A DNA stretch of 19,696 bases, from NCBI GenBank assembly GCA_903844585.1, contig CAIMUD010000167.1:1-19696 (forward strand), read 5' to 3'. Position numbers and translations under genes: made by a program. The notes beneath the pieces were generated by a model. The model was not told the DNA's origin, searched no databases, and was given only the letters and a program-made list of their open reading frames with translations. Origin of the DNA: an uncultured Actinomycetes bacterium (GTDB lineage Bacteria > Actinomycetota > Actinomycetes > Nanopelagicales > Nanopelagicaceae). Of the stretch, positions 8,922 through 17,232 are shown in pieces (positions within the stretch are counted from its first letter, which is position 1; each line of letters opens with the position of its first letter).

Positions 8922-10436
8922 TTACTGGGAAGCGGACTCAGCTAAAGCAATCAAAGAGCGAAGTGCGATGCCGGTACCGCCGACGGGGGTGTATCCGTGA
9001 GAGTTGCTTTCGTTAAATGCAGGGCCTGCAATATCAAGATGGAGCCAAGGTAAATCTGCTGCGATGAATTCTTTTAGGAAGAGACCGGCAACAAGCATTC
9101 CACCCATCCGCTCTCCGATATTTGCTAAATCTGCAACGGGTGAATCGAGAGATGCGCGCAGTTCTGGAGGAAGTGGCATTGGCCAGAAGGCTTCCCCCGA
9201 TGCTTCTGCAACTCGTAGAAAAGTCTTTGAGAGTTCATCATTGTTTGTCATTACGGCGCTGGTGCGAGTTCCGAGAGCCACAACTTGAGCACCGGTTAGC
9301 GTTGCAACATCAACTATTGCATCGAGTCCGTTCTCCTCTTGAGCCTTAACCATCGCATCGGCCAATACCAAGCGACCTTCTGCATCTGGATTGAGAACTT
9401 CAACCGTTTTGCCACCATACATAGTGATGATGTCACTCGGTCTTGTTGCACTTTCACTGACCATGTTTTCGGCAAGTGGTGCATATGTATGGATTTCAAT
9501 AGGAAGTTTTAGTAGCGCAATTGCAATAGTGGCTGCACAAACGGCGGCAGCGCCGCTCATATCCGCCTTCATCGCCTCCATGCCTAGCGCCGGCTTTAGA
9601 GCTAAGCCCCCGGTATCGAAAGTTATCCCTTTGCCAATGTAGGCATACTTTTTCAATTTCTTTTTTGCAGAAGCAGATTTTGAGGGGATGTAAGAAATAC
9701 TGAGAAGACGTGGAGGATTCTTTGATCCTTGTCCAACTGCGGTAATTCCGCCGTATCCCTTTGCTTTTAACTCTGACTCGGTGAGTACGGAAATCTTTAG
9801 ACCCGATGCACCTGATTTCTTAACTGCGCTTTGAATCGCTTTTACAAAAGTTTCTGGCGTTAAATGACTTGGGGGAGTATTGATTAGATCGCGCACAAGA
9901 AAGGTGTAATCAACAATAATTTGAGCACGCGCCACTAAGAAAGCGGCCATTGACTTCTCTATTTTCTTACTCTGAACTGTCACGGTTTTAAGCGGGGGTT
10001 TGCGATCACTTTTGGACTTACCTCGAAATTCATCGAATGCATAAGCACCAAGCCCAGCGCCCTCAGCAATTGCTGATAAATCATTCTCATTTACTGCAGG
10101 AAGTGAGAATGTTGCGCCAGCACTTCCTGCCAAGGCGCGAGCAGCGCTTCCGGAGGCGCGGCGAAGAAGTTCGCAACTATAGGAACTCTTATGTTCGCCT
10201 AGGCCGGTGAATACCACGAGTCCAGAATTTGAACCGGGAACCTTGATGACCTCTTCAACTTTTCCAGTTGCACCTAAGTCGGCAAGAATTCTTTGGAATT
10301 TCTTAACGTCTACAGCTACGCCACCAGTCTCGATAACAAGGGATCCGCTTGTATTTGTCTTGCCGCTCTTATGTGCCAAACCAACAACAAGAATCTCATC
10401 TTTGACGATTCCATCTGAAATTCTGAGTTTGGGCAT
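8922..10436 (-). CDS. pepA: Leucyl (cytosol) aminopeptidase, M17 family
   Basis: A zinc/manganese exopeptidase removing N-terminal residues from peptides. With the start at ATG 10436 it has 504 residues, close to the family norm. The predicted metal and catalytic residues are all present: K269 and D274 (GKGITFDTGG), D292 (KADMSGAAA), D351, E353 and R355 (NPDAEGRL). The family signature is usually NTDAEGRL; here Pro replaces Thr. The frame stays open far upstream, antisense to gcvT, but that stretch has no aminopeptidase homology. An ATG at 10460 is also possible (8 extra residues). I prefer 10436 because a TACACT hexamer lies 6 bases before it, matching the leaderless pattern of neighbouring genes. 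It is divergent from gcvT and 138 bases upstream of lpdA. Confidence 0.94.
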   Translation of the reverse strand: MPKLRISDGIVKDEILVVGLAHKSGKTNTSGSLVIETGGVAVDVKKFQRILADLGATGKVEEVIKVPGSNSGLVVFTGLGEHKSSYSCELLRRASGSAARALAGSAGATFSLPAVNENDLSAIAEGAGLGAYAFDEFRGKSKSDRKPPLKTVTVQSKKIEKSMAAFLVARAQIIVDYTFLVRDLINTPPSHLTPETFVKAIQSAVKKSGASGLKISVLTESELKAKGYGGITAVGQGSKNPPRLLSISYIPSKSASAKKKLKKYAYIGKGITFDTGGLALKPALGMEAMKADMSGAAAVCAATIAIALLKLPIEIHTYAPLAENMVSESATRPSDIITMYGGKTVEVLNPDAEGRLVLADAMVKAQEENGLDAIVDVATLTGAQVVALGTRTSAVMTNNDELSKTFLRVAEASGEAFWPMPLPPELRASLDSPVADLANIGERMGGMLVAGLFLKEFIAADLPWLHLDIAGPAFNESNSHGYTPVGGTGIALRSLIALAESASQ

Positions 10437-10442
10437 TCGGCA

Positions 10443-10452
10443 AGTGTAGGTT
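10443..10452. promoter_or_regulatory. Overlapping divergent -10 elements of pepA and gcvT
   Basis: This 10-base stretch contains TAGGTT on the plus strand (10447-10452), 6 bases before the gcvT ATG, and TACACT on the minus strand (10448 to 10443), 6 bases before the pepA ATG at 10436. The two hexamers share two bases. Both genes would be leaderless, and the two promoters could not be occupied at once. No clear -35 boxes are seen; they would lie inside the opposite gene. Confidence 0.55.
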
Positions 10453-10458
10453 GTTGAC

Positions 10459-11547
10459 ATGAAAAATTCACCACTGGCCGAAAAACACCTAGCGCTCGGA
10501 GCCAAGATGGCTGATTTTGGTGGGTGGTTAATGCCTATTGAATATCCAGGAGCGGGAGTTATTGCTGAACACACTGCGGTGCGCACGCGAGTGGGGGCCT
10601 TTGATGTTTCGCATTTAGGTAAAGCATCCGTCAAAGGTGTAGGTGCTGTTGAATTTCTGAATTCAATGGTTACAAATGATCTTAGTCGCATTGGCTCAGG
10701 GAAAGCGCAGTACACCCTTCTTTGCAACGAGGACGGTGGCGTAGTAGATGACCTCATCGTCTATAGGAATTCAGATACTGATTTATTTCTTGTACCAAAT
10801 GCGGCAAATACCGCCAGTGTTGTGGATGTGCTTAAAGCGGCGGCGCCTGCAGGCATTGAAGTAAAAAATTTGCATAACGAGTATGCAGTCATCGCAGTGC
10901 AGGGCCCAAAATCGCACGAGGTTATGACTACCTTAGGAATCAATCCTGAAATGGATTACATGTCATTTGGCCACGTATCGATTGCCGGGTGTGATGTCAT
11001 TCTTTGTCGTACTGGATACACCGGAGAGCTCGGATTTGAATTGCTACCTATGTGGAACGATGCAAGCAAAGTTTGGGATGTCTTAGTCGACGCAATGAAA
11101 CCTTTCGATGGCCTTGTCTGCGGACTAGGTGCCAGAGACACACTTCGAACCGAAATGGGATATCCACTGCACGGCCACGAACTCACACTAGGAATCTCAC
11201 CAGTAGAAGCGGGTGCGACATGGGCTATTGGCTGGAAGAAGGAGTCCTTTAGAGGTTCAAAAATACTGGTCGATCAAAAAACACATGGGACTTCTCGGAC
11301 CTTGAAGGCAATTGCATCGACAGATAGAGGAATCCCACGCGCTGGAATGCAGGTAAAGGACTCGAGTGGAAATGTTATTGGTGAAGTAACGAGCGGAACT
11401 TTTTCGCCAACGCTAAAAAAGGGCATAGGTTTGGCGCTGCTAAATCCTGCAATTTCAATTAACGAAAAAGTTGTGCTGGATGTTCGCGGTCGAGATTCAA
11501 TTTGTGAAGTCGTGTCATTGCCTTTTGTACAATCGCACGTACGTTAA
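10459..11547 (+). CDS. gcvT: Glycine cleavage system T protein (aminomethyltransferase)
   Basis: Takes the aminomethyl group from lipoylated GcvH and passes the one-carbon unit to tetrahydrofolate, releasing ammonia. 362 residues, the normal length. Recognisable stretches are the N-terminal FGGW(L)MPIEYP, GAFDVSHLGK (about 47-56), VVDDLIVYR (about 95-103, containing the catalytic Asp, probably D97), GYTGELGFE and CGLGARDTLRTEMGYPL. The ATG sits 6 bases after TAGGTT and has no ribosome-binding site. gcvH and gcvP are not in the window, so the system is split; the lipoyl synthesis genes and E3 are nearby. Its TAA overlaps the cobT stop on the other strand in a shared TTAA. Confidence 0.96.
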   Translation: MKNSPLAEKHLALGAKMADFGGWLMPIEYPGAGVIAEHTAVRTRVGAFDVSHLGKASVKGVGAVEFLNSMVTNDLSRIGSGKAQYTLLCNEDGGVVDDLIVYRNSDTDLFLVPNAANTASVVDVLKAAAPAGIEVKNLHNEYAVIAVQGPKSHEVMTTLGINPEMDYMSFGHVSIAGCDVILCRTGYTGELGFELLPMWNDASKVWDVLVDAMKPFDGLVCGLGARDTLRTEMGYPLHGHELTLGISPVEAGATWAIGWKKESFRGSKILVDQKTHGTSRTLKAIASTDRGIPRAGMQVKDSSGNVIGEVTSGTFSPTLKKGIGLALLNPAISINEKVVLDVRGRDSICEVVSLPFVQSHVR

Positions 11548-13028
11548 ATATAGTTCTCCAGTTTGCCCATTCGCTCATAAGTTAAACAAGCCGCACGCAA
11601 AATTGGAATACTCAAGACAGCGCCAGTTCCTTCGCCTAGTCGTAAATTTAAATCCAATATGGGGTTCAATCCGAGTTTTGAGATAGCGATTCGTGAGGCA
11701 GGTTCTGTCGAACAATGCCCGGCGATCAAAGACTCAACAATTTCTGGTTTCAATCGGTGTGCCATACAAGCTGCAGCCAGAGTAATAACTCCATCTAAAA
11801 TTATTGGAACGCCAAGGGTTGCACCTCTCATGATGAACCCAGTAAGTGCAGCAATCTCAAGGCCTCCAAATGCAGCCAGCGCTTTCATGGGGTCGCTCTG
11901 AGTTGATAGCTTCTGTAGAGCTGCATCAACAATTTTAACTTTGTTTTCAAATATATCTTGAGGTATAGCTGACCCATAACCCGTGACTTCGTTGGCACTT
12001 GCCTTGCATAAGTAACCAATAAGAATCGCAGATGAAGTTGTGTTACCGATACCGACCTCTCCTGTGCATAGCGTGCGCGAACCTCCGGCTACCAATCTCT
12101 CAGCCGATTGCGCGCCTTCCTCCAAGGCTTGTAGCAGCTCTTGTTCAGTCATTGCATCTTCAAATCTGAAATCCTTGGTTCCGTCAGTGATTTTTACATT
12201 TCTAATGAGCGAAGAGTCAGGATTTGAAACTGTGCCTACATTTACAACTTCTACATAGACATCTGAGATTTGCGCTATTACGGAGATGCCGGCTTCACCT
12301 GCGACAATTAAATCTGCCATGAGCGAAGTTATTTGCTGAGGCCAAGGTGTTACTGAGTTGTCCTTTGCGATTCCGTGATCGGCTACGAATACAGCCACTG
12401 CGCATGGATCAACCGAAGGACTCGCGTGGGTAATTCGAGCAATTTGAGCAGCGAGTTGTTCTAGAGATCCCAATGATTTAGGTGGTTTTACCAAACCATC
12501 AAAATTATTCAATACCTGTGTTCCAAAATCATGACTGATGTGAACGTCTATATCCAAAGCACGTTGCCATGCACTTTTGGGTGAAGATAGGAAATCCTGA
12601 AAACTCTTATAGATGTTTTGGGAGGTATAAATAAACTCCATACCGGCAAGGTGGGCGCTTACCTTGTCAGAATCCAAATCGCCAATGTATATAGCGCGCG
12701 ATGGAGGCACCCGAAGCTTTTCGGCGGCGGCAATGAGGGGGAGGGGCGATGGTTTCTCAACTCCGAAATCAAATGAAGAAATACAAAAATCAAAATACTT
12801 AGCTAATCCAATAGCCTCAAGTTTCGTCATGATCTCATCGGATGTGAGGTTTTTGGAGTTCGACATTAGAGCCAATTTCTTATGAACCACAAGTGAATCT
12901 AAGAGTTCGCGAACTCCTGGGAGCACTTGAACTACAAGATTAGAGATTGGCACTCCGGGATTATTTTGCAAAACAAGGGTATTACCAATATCGAAAATTA
13001 CTGCGTCGAAGTTATCTAGATAAGCCAT
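11544..13028 (-). CDS. cobT: HAD-family phosphatase-like domain fused to CobT
   Basis: One 494-residue open frame with two parts. Residues about 1-155 are a HAD-like hydrolase: nucleophile D13 in FDIGNTL, motif II S56 (LMSNS), K92 (EKPSP) and motif IV D117/D121 (IGDLDSD). The usual second Asp of motif I is Gly (DIG for DxD). Residues about 165-494 are a complete nicotinate-nucleotide:5,6-dimethylbenzimidazole phosphoribosyltransferase: GLVKPPKSLGSLE, VADHGIAKD, GEVGIGNTTS, GGLEIAALTG, and LRLGEGTGA with catalytic Glu (E466). CobT makes alpha-ribazole phosphate for the B12 lower loop. The start overlaps the end of cobS by 13 bases; this is the last operon gene. I infer that the HAD part may dephosphorylate alpha-ribazole phosphate or cobalamin phosphate, since no cobC is seen here. 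Confidence 0.93.
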   Translation of the reverse strand: MAYLDNFDAVIFDIGNTLVLQNNPGVPISNLVVQVLPGVRELLDSLVVHKKLALMSNSKNLTSDEIMTKLEAIGLAKYFDFCISSFDFGVEKPSPLPLIAAAEKLRVPPSRAIYIGDLDSDKVSAHLAGMEFIYTSQNIYKSFQDFLSSPKSAWQRALDIDVHISHDFGTQVLNNFDGLVKPPKSLGSLEQLAAQIARITHASPSVDPCAVAVFVADHGIAKDNSVTPWPQQITSLMADLIVAGEAGISVIAQISDVYVEVVNVGTVSNPDSSLIRNVKITDGTKDFRFEDAMTEQELLQALEEGAQSAERLVAGGSRTLCTGEVGIGNTTSSAILIGYLCKASANEVTGYGSAIPQDIFENKVKIVDAALQKLSTQSDPMKALAAFGGLEIAALTGFIMRGATLGVPIILDGVITLAAACMAHRLKPEIVESLIAGHCSTEPASRIAISKLGLNPILDLNLRLGEGTGAVLSIPILRAACLTYERMGKLENYI

Positions 13029-13780
13029 GGAACTGATCCATTTATGGAGAGAATGAATAAGAAGAGAGTGAGAATTGTCGATTCACTTATCTGTTCAGCA
13101 GCGCCGAAAGCATCACCCAAAACGCCGCCTATCTTTTTAATAACCCAGCGCGTAAACATAAATATTGGTGGGACTAGAGATGCTAGTACTAACAGATACA
13201 TCCAGCCTGTATATGGAATAGTTAAAAGCGCAGAAAGTGAGAGCGTTCCAATTAGATGCTTTATTTTGATTTCTCGCGATGCGGTCGCGCCCATACCTGC
13301 TTGATTTGGCGCTGAAGGAATGAGCATCAAGAAAACCGGAACTATCTTGGAAACGGTATGAGATGCAAGAAGAACCAGGGCTCCATCCTTGTAATCGAAG
13401 GAACTTATGAGAGTTATCTGCAGGATTAATTGAAAACAAATAGCAACGACGCCATACGTGCCATGTCTAGAGTCTTTCAAAATTCGCAAACGTTCTTCTG
13501 GGTTCCAACCTCCTACGAGGCCATCAAAAATATCCCCAAGACCATCAAAATGAAATGCGCCAGTAATTGCAATTGAAACGAGAAGAGCAAAGGCTGCTGC
13601 GGGAAGGTTTGGAATGGCTTGAACCAGAAGAAAATAGGTAACTCCTGAGGCAGACCCTATGAAAAAACCAACGAGAGGAAACCATACTGCGCTGCGGTGG
13701 AGGCGAACTTGGTCAGAATGTTTGATTGGAATCCGGGTAAGGAATGCGAACGAGACCTTTATATCGTTGTAGACACTCAT
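13016..13780 (-). CDS. cobS: Adenosylcobinamide-GDP ribazoletransferase (cobalamin synthase) CobS
   Basis: Integral membrane enzyme joining adenosylcobinamide-GDP with alpha-ribazole (or its phosphate) to give adenosylcobalamin (phosphate). 254 residues, the typical length. It has FLTRIP near the N-terminus (13-18), the conserved acidic stretch HFDGLGDIFDGLVGG (77-91), LKDSRHGTYG (101-110) and the C-terminal GGVLGDAFGAAEQISE (about 218-233), between several hydrophobic segments. The ATG overlaps the cobU stop in an ATGA, and the gene's own TAG lies inside the first codons of the HAD-cobT gene, so the three loop-assembly genes are tightly coupled. Confidence 0.95.
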   Translation of the reverse strand: MSVYNDIKVSFAFLTRIPIKHSDQVRLHRSAVWFPLVGFFIGSASGVTYFLLVQAIPNLPAAAFALLVSIAITGAFHFDGLGDIFDGLVGGWNPEERLRILKDSRHGTYGVVAICFQLILQITLISSFDYKDGALVLLASHTVSKIVPVFLMLIPSAPNQAGMGATASREIKIKHLIGTLSLSALLTIPYTGWMYLLVLASLVPPIFMFTRWVIKKIGGVLGDAFGAAEQISESTILTLFLFILSINGSVPWLI

Positions 13781-14280
13781 TTCAACTTGGTCTCGATTCC
13801 AAATCGCATATAAATAACTTGATCACACAGTTTTGCGAATTCTTGGTTCATCGAACCAGAGAGATCTCTAAATTTTCTAGATACGGGATGCATTGGAACA
13901 ATCCCCTCGCCCGTCTCATTTGTTACAAAAATAGTTGATCCTTTTCTATTTTGTGCAGCTTCAATAACTTTTGCTACATCCAAGTTCATTTCTCGCGCCA
14001 TCGCGTTGGAGAGCCAGAGAGTTAAGCAATCCACAATCACAAGGTCGTTATCTGGAAAGGTAGAGAGCGCTCCCGCAAGATCCAAGGGTTCTTCAACTAA
14101 ATCAAACCCTTCGCCTCTTTCGCGTTGGTGATTTGAGATTCGAATTTCCATCTCCGCATCTGATCGCTCCGCGGTTGCAATAAATAGGACGCGACCTCCA
14201 ATTTCGATGCTATTTCGAGCGCGGATGAGTGCGGCTGTGCTTTTTCCACTCCGTGCCCCGCCACCGATGAGCGTAAGCAT
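13777..14280 (-). CDS. cobU: Adenosylcobinamide kinase / adenosylcobinamide-phosphate guanylyltransferase CobU
   Basis: Bifunctional enzyme that phosphorylates adenosylcobinamide and then activates it with GMP, supplying the CobS substrate. 167 residues. It shows the P-loop GGARSGKS (7-14), the conserved His of HQRER (H51, the likely guanylylated residue), DCLTLWLSN (84-92) and TNETGEGIVP (120-129). Its ATG shares one base with the btuD stop (TAATG), and its own TGA overlaps the cobS ATG. Being directly after an importer, its role is most simply salvage of imported incomplete corrinoids. Confidence 0.95.
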   Translation of the reverse strand: MLTLIGGGARSGKSTAALIRARNSIEIGGRVLFIATAERSDAEMEIRISNHQRERGEGFDLVEEPLDLAGALSTFPDNDLVIVDCLTLWLSNAMAREMNLDVAKVIEAAQNRKGSTIFVTNETGEGIVPMHPVSRKFRDLSGSMNQEFAKLCDQVIYMRFGIETKLK

Positions 14281-15044
14281 TAAATTATTTCGCTTCTTAT
14301 TTTATTGGCAACGATTACAGTGTGACCATCAACGAGTGTGTGCACGCTAATTCCGTGGTCAAAAGCCATTTTTAATTCATTTGAATGGATCACCGTAGAG
14401 GCTGGACCATCGAGCAGGACTTTTCCCTCCCGCATGACAATAATTCTCTCCGCGTACATCGCGCTAAGAGTGATGTCGTGCATGGTCGAAACTATGGTGA
14501 CTCCACTGTTTTTCAATGATTCGACCTGGTTGAGTGTCGTTATTTGGTGATGCAAATCCAATGCGCTGGTTGGTTCGTCTAGCAACATCACGTCTGGTTC
14601 TTGCACAATTGCTCTAGCAATCAAAACGCGCTGCAATTCACCACCGGAAAGCTGGGTTAGTAATTGTTTATGTAGGCCAACTAGTTGGGTTTCTTCTAGA
14701 GTCTTTTGAATGAGCAAACGCCCTGCTCGCTTTTCGCGTCCCCAGCCATCTAGCTTTGCTCTTCCTAGCGCTAAATATTCAATCACTGTCATACCCATAG
14801 GTATTTCAGGCCGCTGTGGCACAAATGCTACGTTGCGCGACATATCTTTGAAGACTTCAACCCCTGAAACTTTTATCGACCCGGAGTAAGGATGCATGCC
14901 CAAAAGAGTCTTAAGGAGAGTGGTTTTACCAGCGCCATTAGGTCCGACGATGCAAGTCCAACTTCCCGCTGGAATTTCCAAACTGATCGAAGACAGAACT
15001 GATTTCTCACCGTAATTTACAGATAAATTTTCAACGCTAATCAC
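14280..15044 (-). CDS. btuD: ABC transporter ATP-binding protein, corrinoid/iron-chelate type (BtuD-like)
   Basis: ATPase subunit of the importer encoded with the two upstream genes. 254 residues with Walker A GPNGAGKT (34-41), Q-loop Q77, signature LSGGELQR (132-139), Walker B VMLLDEP (152-158) and switch His H189. It belongs to the FepC/BtuD group, whose members move cobalamin, haem or siderophores. Corrinoid specificity is inferred from the cobalamin riboswitch upstream and cobUST downstream. The start is GTG, sharing one base with the btuC TAG; the stop shares one base with the cobU ATG. Confidence 0.92.
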   Translation of the reverse strand: MISVENLSVNYGEKSVLSSISLEIPAGSWTCIVGPNGAGKTTLLKTLLGMHPYSGSIKVSGVEVFKDMSRNVAFVPQRPEIPMGMTVIEYLALGRAKLDGWGREKRAGRLLIQKTLEETQLVGLHKQLLTQLSGGELQRVLIARAIVQEPDVMLLDEPTSALDLHHQITTLNQVESLKNSGVTIVSTMHDITLSAMYAERIIVMREGKVLLDGPASTVIHSNELKMAFDHGISVHTLVDGHTVIVANKIRSEII

Positions 15045-16066
15045 TATTGAATTCCTCCTCTTTTCGCACGAAGGACAAAAAGAAAAAACGGCGCTCCAAT
15101 AAATGCCGTGATTACACCAATAGGTAATTCAGCGGGGGAGATGAGCGTTCTTGCACCAAGGTCTGCAAGAACCAAGAATGCTGCTCCCGATAATGAAATT
15201 GCCAAGAGTGCACGGTTTGTGGCTTTCTTAGTTATTCCGCGAATGATGTGTGGCACGACGATTCCTACAAAACCGATGAGCCCACTTACCGAAACAGCTG
15301 TAGCGGTGGCCAGCGTTGCTGCGCCAACTGCAACCATTCGAATCTTGTTAGGAGAGATTCCGAGTGAAAAAGCTTCTTCATCGCTTAGCATTAATCCATC
15401 AAGGAGTTTTGATATGCGGATAAGGATTGCAAGGGCTAAGAAGATATAAATTGCAGCCCATTTCACGCTCTGCCAATCTGCAACTGTAAGTTCACCTAGA
15501 ATCCAGGAATATACGGGGCGCAATACTTGGCTGTTTCTCTGTTGTAAGAAAGTCTGAATTGCAGTTGCAAACGAACCTACGGCTATGCCGGACAGTAATA
15601 GGGAACTGGGATCTGAGAAAAATTTTCCTGCCACAAGAAAAGTGGCGAGCACAGCTAGAACCCCACCCAGGAAAGCAAAAATAGGAAGTGCTGCTGTAAA
15701 TGTTCGGCCAGTTCCTGTAATGGCAAGAGTCGCCCCAAGACCGGCCCCTGCTGCGGCACCTAACAAATATGGATCAGCAAGAGGATTTCGAAATACCGTT
15801 TGGTAAACAGCACCGCTAGTTGCAAGAGCTGCCCCCACTAGCGCCGCTAGTGCAACTCTCGGCAATCTAATTTGAAGAAGTAGAGTTCGATCTTGTTCTG
15901 ATAAACCAGAACTTCTTCCCAAAAGCGTCCGCACCACATTGGCAAATTCAAGGTGGACTGGACCGATACTCACTGCGAGAACGCAAGAAATAAGTAACAC
16001 CAACCCAAAGATGGCAGTCATCTGCCACCTCCAGATTGGAGCTAACTCATTTTTTACAGAAATCAT
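15044..16066 (-). CDS. btuC: ABC transporter permease, FecCD family (BtuC-like)
   Basis: Membrane subunit of the corrinoid importer. With the ATG at 16066 it has 340 residues, typical of FecCD permeases with about ten membrane segments. Family landmarks are QIRLPRVALAALVGAALATSG and the following VFRNPLADPYLLG (about 65-103), GLIGFVGIVVPHIIR (252-266, the loop that contacts the ATPase) and the C-terminal ELPIGVITAFIGAPFF. An upstream in-frame start at 16120 would overlap btuF by 55 bases and add residues with no family resemblance. The ATG at 16066 shares one base with the btuF stop (TAATG), as at other joints in this operon. Confidence 0.93.
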   Translation of the reverse strand: MISVKNELAPIWRWQMTAIFGLVLLISCVLAVSIGPVHLEFANVVRTLLGRSSGLSEQDRTLLLQIRLPRVALAALVGAALATSGAVYQTVFRNPLADPYLLGAAAGAGLGATLAITGTGRTFTAALPIFAFLGGVLAVLATFLVAGKFFSDPSSLLLSGIAVGSFATAIQTFLQQRNSQVLRPVYSWILGELTVADWQSVKWAAIYIFLALAILIRISKLLDGLMLSDEEAFSLGISPNKIRMVAVGAATLATATAVSVSGLIGFVGIVVPHIIRGITKKATNRALLAISLSGAAFLVLADLGARTLISPAELPIGVITAFIGAPFFLFVLRAKRGGIQ

Positions 16067-16983
16067 TAGTTGATGGCTTCTGCAACAACTCTGTAGAAGT
16101 CCACTATTCGTGGCCCCCATCTGGATGGAATATCGGCAGGCAGTACAACGATTTTGCCTTTCTTAACCGCTTCTATTTGAGACCAACCTGCGCGAGCTCT
16201 CACGGTATCGGCGTTCTGTGATGCGTAAGAATCGGCAAGAAAAATAATCTGCGGATTGCATTTAATGAGAAATTCAGCTGTGATTTGTGGATATCCGGAT
16301 TTATCTGCGCCTTTTGCCGCGTCAGCAATGTTCTTGAGACCAAAGTCTTTATAGACAGAACCTATAAAAGTTTTAGAAGTGGCTGAATATAGGGTCTCAT
16401 CTAATTCATGGAAGAACCGTAATTTCGGTTTTTTCGCCGATGTTCGCAGAATCAGGGCGATATCCGACTTCATTCTCTTTACCAAACCCATAGAAGCTGA
16501 TGAGTTGTCAGTTGCTAGTCCGAGTAATTCAATCTCCGAATAGGCGTTGCTCAATTTTGTTGCTGCCTTTTCAATAAAAACCGAAATTCCGAGTTTAGTT
16601 AGTGCATCCTTGACAACTTTAGATTTAGCCGAATCAACAGATAGAATTACTAAATCTGGGTTTTGCGCAACAATCGCTTCGATATTTGGATCAAAACCAC
16701 TTAGTGAACTTTTGGGAACATTTGTTGGATAATTTGATTGATCATCCACCGCCAAAACTTGCGGTCCTGCTCCAATGCTGAAAAGAATTTCAGTCGCCGT
16801 GGGAGAGAGCGAAATAATCTTGAGCGGCTTATTTTTAATTGTTGTTGTGTATCCACCAGATTTAACTGTTATTGGATATGCAGTTGCAGCAATTGCTGAT
16901 TGAGTTGGTAGAAAAGCGAAAATTGCCAAGAAAAGTGAAGCAATAGTTGGTTTGGCAAAGAGCGTGAAACGTCCTTTAAACAT
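16066..16983 (-). CDS. btuF: Corrinoid-binding ABC substrate-binding protein (BtuF-like)
   Basis: Extracytoplasmic receptor of the importer, a class III binding protein (305 residues from ATG 16983). An N-terminal Sec signal peptide is clear: KGR then a hydrophobic run (about 14-26), with likely cleavage after the SAIAA region near residue 33. There is no lipobox cysteine. The mature part begins with the family-typical stretch IISLSPTATEILFSIGAG (56-73). The start at 16983 is preceded by AGGGAG (16994 to 16989) 5 bases upstream; the longer frame to 17037 would put the riboswitch platform into protein. First gene of the btuFCD-cobUST operon, under the cobalamin riboswitch. Cobalamin specificity is inferred from context. 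Confidence 0.92.
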   Translation of the reverse strand: MFKGRFTLFAKPTIASLFLAIFAFLPTQSAIAATAYPITVKSGGYTTTIKNKPLKIISLSPTATEILFSIGAGPQVLAVDDQSNYPTNVPKSSLSGFDPNIEAIVAQNPDLVILSVDSAKSKVVKDALTKLGISVFIEKAATKLSNAYSEIELLGLATDNSSASMGLVKRMKSDIALILRTSAKKPKLRFFHELDETLYSATSKTFIGSVYKDFGLKNIADAAKGADKSGYPQITAEFLIKCNPQIIFLADSYASQNADTVRARAGWSQIEAVKKGKIVVLPADIPSRWGPRIVDFYRVVAEAIN

Positions 16984-16988
16984 AAAAA

Positions 16989-17010
16989 CTCCCTCAAGGA
17001 TTTGAGGGAG
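16989..17010 (-). promoter_or_regulatory. Sequestering hairpin over the btuF ribosome-binding site
   Basis: A perfect 9-bp inverted repeat (CTCCCTCAA, 4-base loop, TTGAGGGAG, minus strand) whose 3' arm contains the btuF AGGGAG Shine-Dalgarno sequence. Five T residues follow, then the ATG. Folding hides the ribosome-binding site; with the T-run it could also act as a weak terminator. It is most likely the OFF element of the cobalamin riboswitch. Confidence 0.8.
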
Positions 17011-17042
17011 GAAAGAGGGCAATCTGCAGTTTCGCAAAAGGC

Positions 17043-17063
17043 CCGACCTTCCTCCGAGGTCGG
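17043..17063 (-). promoter_or_regulatory. Upstream platform hairpin of the cobalamin riboswitch
   Basis: CCGACCT and AGGTCGG form a 7-bp stem with a 7-base loop containing GGAGG; a short GGGCCTTTT follows on the minus strand, so it might also be a weak terminator. Its GGAGGAA (17055 to 17049) is perfectly complementary to TTCCTCC (17013 to 17007), which overlaps the 5' arm of the sequestering hairpin. The two pairings therefore exclude each other. Confidence 0.65.
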
Positions 17064-17069
17064 AAATCT

Positions 17070-17232
17070 TCGGCGTAGCGCCAGGCGACCTGGCTTAGAC
17101 CAATGCAAATCGTTGAATTGCAAGTCTTTACAGTTGCGGGAACAGCACCGGAATTTAACCGGATTTCGCTAAACGCAACGCCCCTGAAATTTAGATGACA
17201 GCGTCCTAAGACACCAGCGTCCTTTTCAGTGG
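17070..17232 (-). ncRNA. Cobalamin riboswitch (AdoCbl-type aptamer)
   Basis: The minus strand holds the conserved cobalamin aptamer core. GGTTAAATTCCGGTGCTGTT followed by CCCGCAACTGTAA (17160 to 17128) matches the central core GGTGxxAxTCC...CCCGCxACTGT. The B12 box AAGCCAGGTCGCCTGGC (17096 to 17080) lies 31 bases further on. A 5' hairpin can form between GACGCCA and TGGTGTC (17237 to 17211). The element sits between the DUF3043 gene and btuF and should repress the operon when intracellular cobalamin is sufficient. Outer boundaries are approximate. Confidence 0.93.

Follow-up and report, generated by a model that had tools for sequence, protein, structure and literature searches.

A HAD domain fused to CobT in actinobacterial cobalamin operons is a candidate nucleotide-loop phosphatase

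In the 19,696-nucleotide stretch of actinobacterial DNA analysed here (hereafter the window), the last gene of a riboswitch-headed cobalamin operon joins an N-terminal HAD domain to a full CobT. Removal of the loop phosphate in cobamide assembly is normally carried out by CobC. Judging from motifs, gene order and conservation, the HAD domain most likely dephosphorylates alpha-ribazole phosphate or a cobamide phosphate, a reading to which we give a probability of about 0.6.

The fusion gene and its operon

The features of the operon were as follows.

11544..13028, minus strand: HAD-CobT fusion gene, 494 aa (open frame, profile matches and conserved architecture)
12579..13028, minus strand: HAD domain, residues 1-150 (about), capless core with D13, G15, N16, T17, S56, K92, D117 and D121
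11556..12533, minus strand: CobT domain, residues 166-491, with E466 in LRLGEGTGA
13016..13780, minus strand: cobS, adenosylcobinamide-GDP ribazoletransferase (Pfam CobS, E 2e-47; TIGR00317, 132.5 bits, cut-off 110)
13777..14280, minus strand: cobU, adenosylcobinamide kinase/guanylyltransferase (Pfam CobU, E 7.4e-48; NF004469, 158.2 bits, just under the cut-off of 161)
14280..15044, minus strand: btuD-like ABC ATPase (Pfam ABC_tran, E 1.1e-30), with a substrate suggested by the context
15044..16120, minus strand: btuC-like permease (Pfam FecCD, E 1.1e-86)
16066..17037, minus strand: btuF-like substrate-binding protein (Pfam Peripla_BP_2, E 9.4e-26)
17038..17195, minus strand: AdoCbl riboswitch at the operon head (RF01482, 52.5 bits, gathering threshold 50)

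The plus strand of 11544..13028 is riddled with stops, and the coding frame lies on the minus strand. As the earlier note had stated, this single open frame encodes a HAD-like domain followed by a full CobT: Pfam HAD_2 matched residues 33-133 (E 2.1e-16), DBI_PRT/CobT matched residues 166-491 (E 9.8e-103), and the TIGR03160 cobT match of 332.4 bits exceeded the cut-off of 319.3. The N-terminal domain has the Rossmann-like core of the HAD superfamily, and the CobT part has the CobT fold. Both domains were present in all 120 of the best homologues listed for the window protein, so the frame that joins them is not due to chance. The residues that the note had named (D13, S56, K92, D117, D121 and E466) were all found in the fusion, as was the replacement of the second Asp of motif I by Gly (DIGN). 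By the offset of 149 between the ends of the aligned ranges, E466 corresponds to E317 of Salmonella CobT, which we take to be the catalytic Glu; it is kept in 178 of 179 aligned fusion rows, and the remaining row has a gap at this position. No histidine-phosphatase domain was found in the fusion, either in the Pfam table or among the 25 of 29 NCBIfam matches listed.

The gene order on the minus strand is riboswitch-btuF-btuC-btuD-cobU-cobS-HAD-cobT, with overlapping frames and the fusion in last place; the true start of the btuC-like frame is probably downstream of the listed one. The operon has cobU, cobS and cobT but no cobC-like gene, as had been noted, and Pfam detected no corrin-ring, bluB-type or histidine-phosphatase domain in the 16 window frames of at least 160 aa. 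Without these domains, the operon reads as one for corrinoid import and nucleotide-loop assembly. On the plus strand, gcvT converges on the fusion gene and overlaps it by 4 bases. The listed leucyl aminopeptidase frame (8922-10757 of the window) overruns gcvT on the other strand, and its real start is probably near 10460. The GC content ranged from 0.41 to 0.50 in 1-kb steps across the window.

Distribution of the fusion

The nearest named contig, L001, belongs to an Actinomycetota MAG (genome G001) and encodes a fusion with 70% identity to that of the window. A second CobT end, 83% identical to the window, is located at a contig start of the same MAG (L002:2-319), perhaps from another strain in the bin. 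Among the 296 genomes of the order of G001 and G022, CobT was found in six, and CobS in the same six. Four of these carry HAD-CobT (G001, G022, G507 and G509), one carries a bare CobT (G530) and one a BluB-CobT (G537). The fusion P0147, whose source is Candidatus Nanopelagicaceae, is 49% identical to the window protein and 52% to that of G022; based on this relationship, we took the order to be Nanopelagicales.

At class level, CobT was detected in 280 of 394 genomes (E 1e-20), and only G001 and G022 had fusions among the matches listed, at the top of which a close fusion would rank. In the phylum sample of 396 genomes, eight passed E 1e-68, two of them with fusions (G022 and G773). The G773 protein is identical over 99% to one of Rhabdothermincola sediminis, class Acidimicrobiia. 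In the 61 genomes around G773, CobT was present in 12 (E 1e-30), with HAD sequence in frame in four: G773, G1015, G1013 (start cut off) and G1012 (divergent, assigned by eye). A search with the G773 protein listed 120 homologues, of which 57 had HAD plus CobT (Pfam domains, counted by eye), 12 had a nitroreductase domain, as BluB-type fusions do, and 51 had neither. The HAD-CobT fusion is thus conserved in two lineages of different classes, the order Nanopelagicales and Acidimicrobiia.

A tree of CobT domains was built with 149 tips (79 fused and 70 non-fused), for which the 120 best homologues were thinned to about every sixth and G1012 and G1013 were left out. It contained no single clean fused clade: the best split grouped 76 of the 79 fused tips with 11 non-fused ones at a support of 0.155, and G1015, P0167 and P0171 were the fused tips outside it.

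Gene order in relatives and the position of cobC

The gene order of the window recurs in G507 and G509 (by Pfam) and in G022 and G001 (by eye), and nadA- and DUF3043-like frames lie upstream in G001, again by eye, as in the window. A cobalamin-class riboswitch was found upstream in all four of these genomes as in the window, the match in G001 being marginal (31.9 bits vs 31.5). In the fusion genomes of the order, the HAD domain sits between cobS and the CobT part. In Rhabdothermincola sediminis (G773) the fusion likewise comes immediately after cobS, in a cluster that also contains CbiC, tetrapyrrole methylase, CobU, CobK, CbiM, CobQ-type and CobN genes, and none of the eight CobC-profile matches of this genome is on the fusion contig.

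The order in G537 (L073:829-3067) is cobS, a histidine phosphatase of 165 residues, bluB-cobT and btuC. The best family of this phosphatase is ribazole_cobC, although its 94.8 bits are below the cut-off of 162.9; the BluB part reached 227.1 bits (cut-off 150). The CobC-like gene of G537 occupies the slot that the HAD domain has in the window. With BluB-CobT and a stand-alone CobC-like gene, the B12 operon of G537 presents a solution unlike that of its relatives. The G537 gene was neither the best nor the second-best match of any of 18 histidine phosphatases compared from the four fusion genomes, a set that leaves out a 301-aa frame of G509 (C11) and a 21.6-bit match of G507 (C4).

G530 has cobU-cobS-cobT (L072:7594-9967) with neither HAD nor an operon cobC, and among the frames of at least 140 aa in the stretch examined we saw no btuFCD, HAD or cobC. 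Its bare cobT set lies beside frames resembling cysteine synthesis genes.

Other candidate phosphatases

The CobC cut-off (TIGR03162) was passed in none of 23 CobT genomes, fused or not. Genomes with bare CobT also fell below it, and no anti-correlation between the fusion and cobC is shown. Histidine-phosphatase matches at E 1e-8 were present in all 23; this test does not discriminate, and we draw no support from it. An RNase HI-phosphatase of the Rv2228c type was found in two of the four fusion genomes of the order, namely G507 and G022 (RNase HI-histidine phosphatase, NF005567, 377.4 bits, cut-off 326). It was not found in G001 and G509, which are small assemblies (0.9 and 1.1 Mb) and maybe incomplete. 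CobC activity has been reported for the histidine-phosphatase domain of Rv2228c, and cells deleted for MSMEG_4305 still contain B12, though less of it (PMC7466739, in excerpt).

Across the order, 239 of the 296 genomes gave a match to the RNase HI-phosphatase (E 1e-45), though some low-scoring matches may cover only one domain, and 235 of these 239 were without CobT and CobS at the thresholds applied. The phosphatase domain of this protein should thus have some task outside cobalamin assembly, and given that it also occurs beside the CobC-like gene in G537, its presence does not settle the question. The earlier note had counted an equivalent phosphatase in a fusion genome against its own reading. 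Taken to the letter, G022 and G507 supply one, but it is the same protein that 235 genomes have without CobT.

These findings bear on the most serious alternative, in which the HAD domain does work as a phosphatase but on a different metabolite, perhaps one that would otherwise compete or inhibit in the vicinity of CobT, while the loop phosphate falls to the RNase HI-phosphatase or another histidine phosphatase. This would agree with the Rv2228c-type protein in G022 and G507, with the several other histidine phosphatases in each CobT genome and with the HAD-free CobT of G530; the Gly at the acid/base position also suggests a substrate whose leaving group is better than that of a 5'-alkyl phosphate. 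However, the RNase HI-phosphatase is widespread in genomes that lack CobT and CobS, and G537 retains a CobC-like gene beside it. Furthermore, no stand-alone relative of the HAD domain was found at E 1e-3 among 37 candidates, in a search that relied on shared 5-residue words and that distant relatives could escape, so the domain is known here only joined to CobT. We consider another substrate unlikely.

Catalytic motifs of the HAD domain

D13, T17, S/T56, K92, D117 and D121 were invariant in all 179 aligned fusions, each a distinct sequence, which extend down to about 28% HAD-domain identity to the window, with the divergent G1012 and the truncated G1013 outside this count. The HAD signature is therefore present in every row: the nucleophile Asp and the Thr of motif I, the S/T of motif II, the Lys of motif III and the D...D of motif IV. 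Loss of the nucleophile in relatives, which had been named as evidence against the phosphatase reading, was seen in none of them. D13 and S56 are separated by only 41-44 residues in all rows (43 in the window), which leaves no room for a C1 cap. The one departure is the usual second Asp of motif I, the general acid/base, which is Gly in 179 of 179.

In the divergent G1012 fusion (L116), the motif III Lys is gone and D121 is replaced by Glu; this fusion is possibly a degenerate paralogue. Its CobT part is without the usual KP before the SLG-type motif. In G1013 there is Asn at D117, and the nucleophile position lies outside the sequence. In the comparison of G507 with G509, the only close pair (other, distant pairs were saturated), dN/dS was 0.064 for HAD vs 0.146 for CobT, indicating purifying selection on the HAD domain.

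That the Gly never varies suggests a defined HAD subfamily rather than decay. YihX also has Gly at this position (FDLGNV), which means that the second Asp is not definitive of the whole HAD superfamily. The enzyme is reported to hydrolyse alpha-D-glucose-1-phosphate specifically (PMC4251788, in excerpt). DxGN thus does not equal a dead enzyme. The substrate of YihX, an anomeric phosphate, has a leaving group superior to that of a 5'-alkyl phosphate, and the missing second Asp could slow hydrolysis of the latter.

The HAD domain might instead have little or no catalytic activity and serve to stabilise or regulate CobT, perhaps as a sensor of phosphate or Mg2+, as the invariant Gly and the Lys loss in G1012 would allow. 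A structural role alone needs no invariance of the other catalytic residues, however, and we rate this reading as less probable than that of another substrate. Least credible is the idea that these cells rely on the RNase HI-phosphatase alone to dephosphorylate alpha-ribazole phosphate and that HAD was joined to CobT by a neutral accident, which the Rv2228c and MSMEG_4305 reports (PMC7466739, in excerpt) would favour but which sits badly with a fusion kept across two classes and with the apparent absence of that protein from the small, maybe incomplete, assemblies G001 and G509.

Proposed function and implications

We therefore return to the phosphatase of the nucleotide loop. The earlier note had proposed that the HAD domain dephosphorylates the product of its partner. 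The motifs, the riboswitch, the otherwise complete loop set and the slot in G537 speak for this, and the RNase HI-phosphatase of G022 and G507 speaks against it. The Gly at the acid/base position, G530 with neither HAD nor cobC, the Lys loss in G1012, the Asn in G1013, the CobT tree in which no single origin is resolved and the lack of any genome, fused or not, above the CobC cut-off also count against it, and a capless HAD might act on other phosphates.

If the reading holds, the HAD-CobT gene would encode a bifunctional enzyme of cobalamin nucleotide-loop assembly. From its family membership, the CobT part is predicted to convert nicotinate mononucleotide and dimethylbenzimidazole into alpha-ribazole 5'-phosphate. 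The HAD core would then take off the 5'-phosphate, with alpha-ribazole phosphate as its substrate if it acts before CobS and cobalamin 5'-phosphate if it acts after. By analogy with the superfamily, it would form an aspartyl-phosphate on D13, bind Mg2+ by D13, D117 and D121 and hold the phosphate by S56 and K92, with an acid/base group other than the usual second Asp. The cell would take up corrinoids via BtuFCD and rebuild cobalamin by CobU, CobS and HAD-CobT under the control of the AdoCbl riboswitch, the HAD domain filling the CobC slot as a non-orthologous replacement. It is slightly short of an even bet that these fusions form one more structural class of loop phosphatase in addition to CobC and CobZ, that is, a capless DxG HAD on CobT in Nanopelagicales and Acidimicrobiia that dephosphorylates the product of its own protein without the usual general acid and hands alpha-ribazole, in place of its phosphate, to CobS.

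Assigning the phosphatase step of cobamide assembly can be difficult, as the 23 CobT-bearing actinobacterial genomes below the CobC cut-off illustrate, and a HAD domain joined to CobT would, if confirmed, offer a clear candidate. It would also identify cobinamide salvage in some relatives of the acI actinobacteria, which are abundant in fresh water. B12 auxotrophy is reported for acI-B (PMC5574706, in excerpt) and no cobalamin synthesis was reported in four complete acI genomes (PMC5301498, in excerpt), in keeping with which CobS occurred in just 6 of the 296 genomes of the order. A DxG enzyme that is active on a 5'-phosphate, if such it is, would be of interest to enzymologists. Among the open-access titles and abstract openings listed, none described a HAD-CobT fusion or a HAD alpha-ribazole phosphatase, which is weak evidence of absence from the literature.

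Comparison with known systems

CobC (TIGR03162), the histidine-phosphatase alpha-ribazole/adenosylcobalamin phosphatase, has the same proposed reaction and pathway slot as the HAD domain, but its fold is unrelated, its catalytic residue is another one, and the fusion is without a histidine-phosphatase domain. HAD-CobT would thus work like CobC without being a member of the CobC family. YihX shares the DxGN motif I in an active HAD phosphatase, although 101 residues separate its motif I Asp from the Ser of LSNT, compared with 43 in the window, and it is a stand-alone enzyme with an anomeric phosphate substrate. CobZ of Methanosarcina is not known to be a HAD protein. As is proposed for the HAD domain, it is a non-orthologous replacement of CobC (named in the parts of PMC8123684 and PMC3541065 available).

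Other fusions offer parallels in architecture. MtlD (PDB 7ocn) and the drimenol synthase AsDMS (PMC9128629) each have, matched by fold and as far as the partial sources go, an N-terminal HAD phosphatase on an enzyme whose product it is held to dephosphorylate, and differ from HAD-CobT in their partner enzymes and pathways. The N-domain of AsDMS groups with HAD phosphatases, and YihX was the template for its model (PMC9128629, in excerpt). The RNase HI-CobC proteins Rv2228c and MSMEG_4305 (PMC7466739, in excerpt) resemble the window gene as actinobacterial fusions with an alpha-ribazole phosphatase domain, putative in our case, but they carry a histidine phosphatase on RNase HI, whereas the window has a HAD domain on CobT. 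In BluB-CobT2 of Propionibacterium freudenreichii (PMC4657239, in excerpt), as in the window, a two-domain CobT has an N-terminal partner for a neighbouring step, and that protein is reported to channel its intermediate. Its partner is the DMB synthase, which acts in the step before CobT, whereas the partner proposed here is a phosphatase that would act in the step after.
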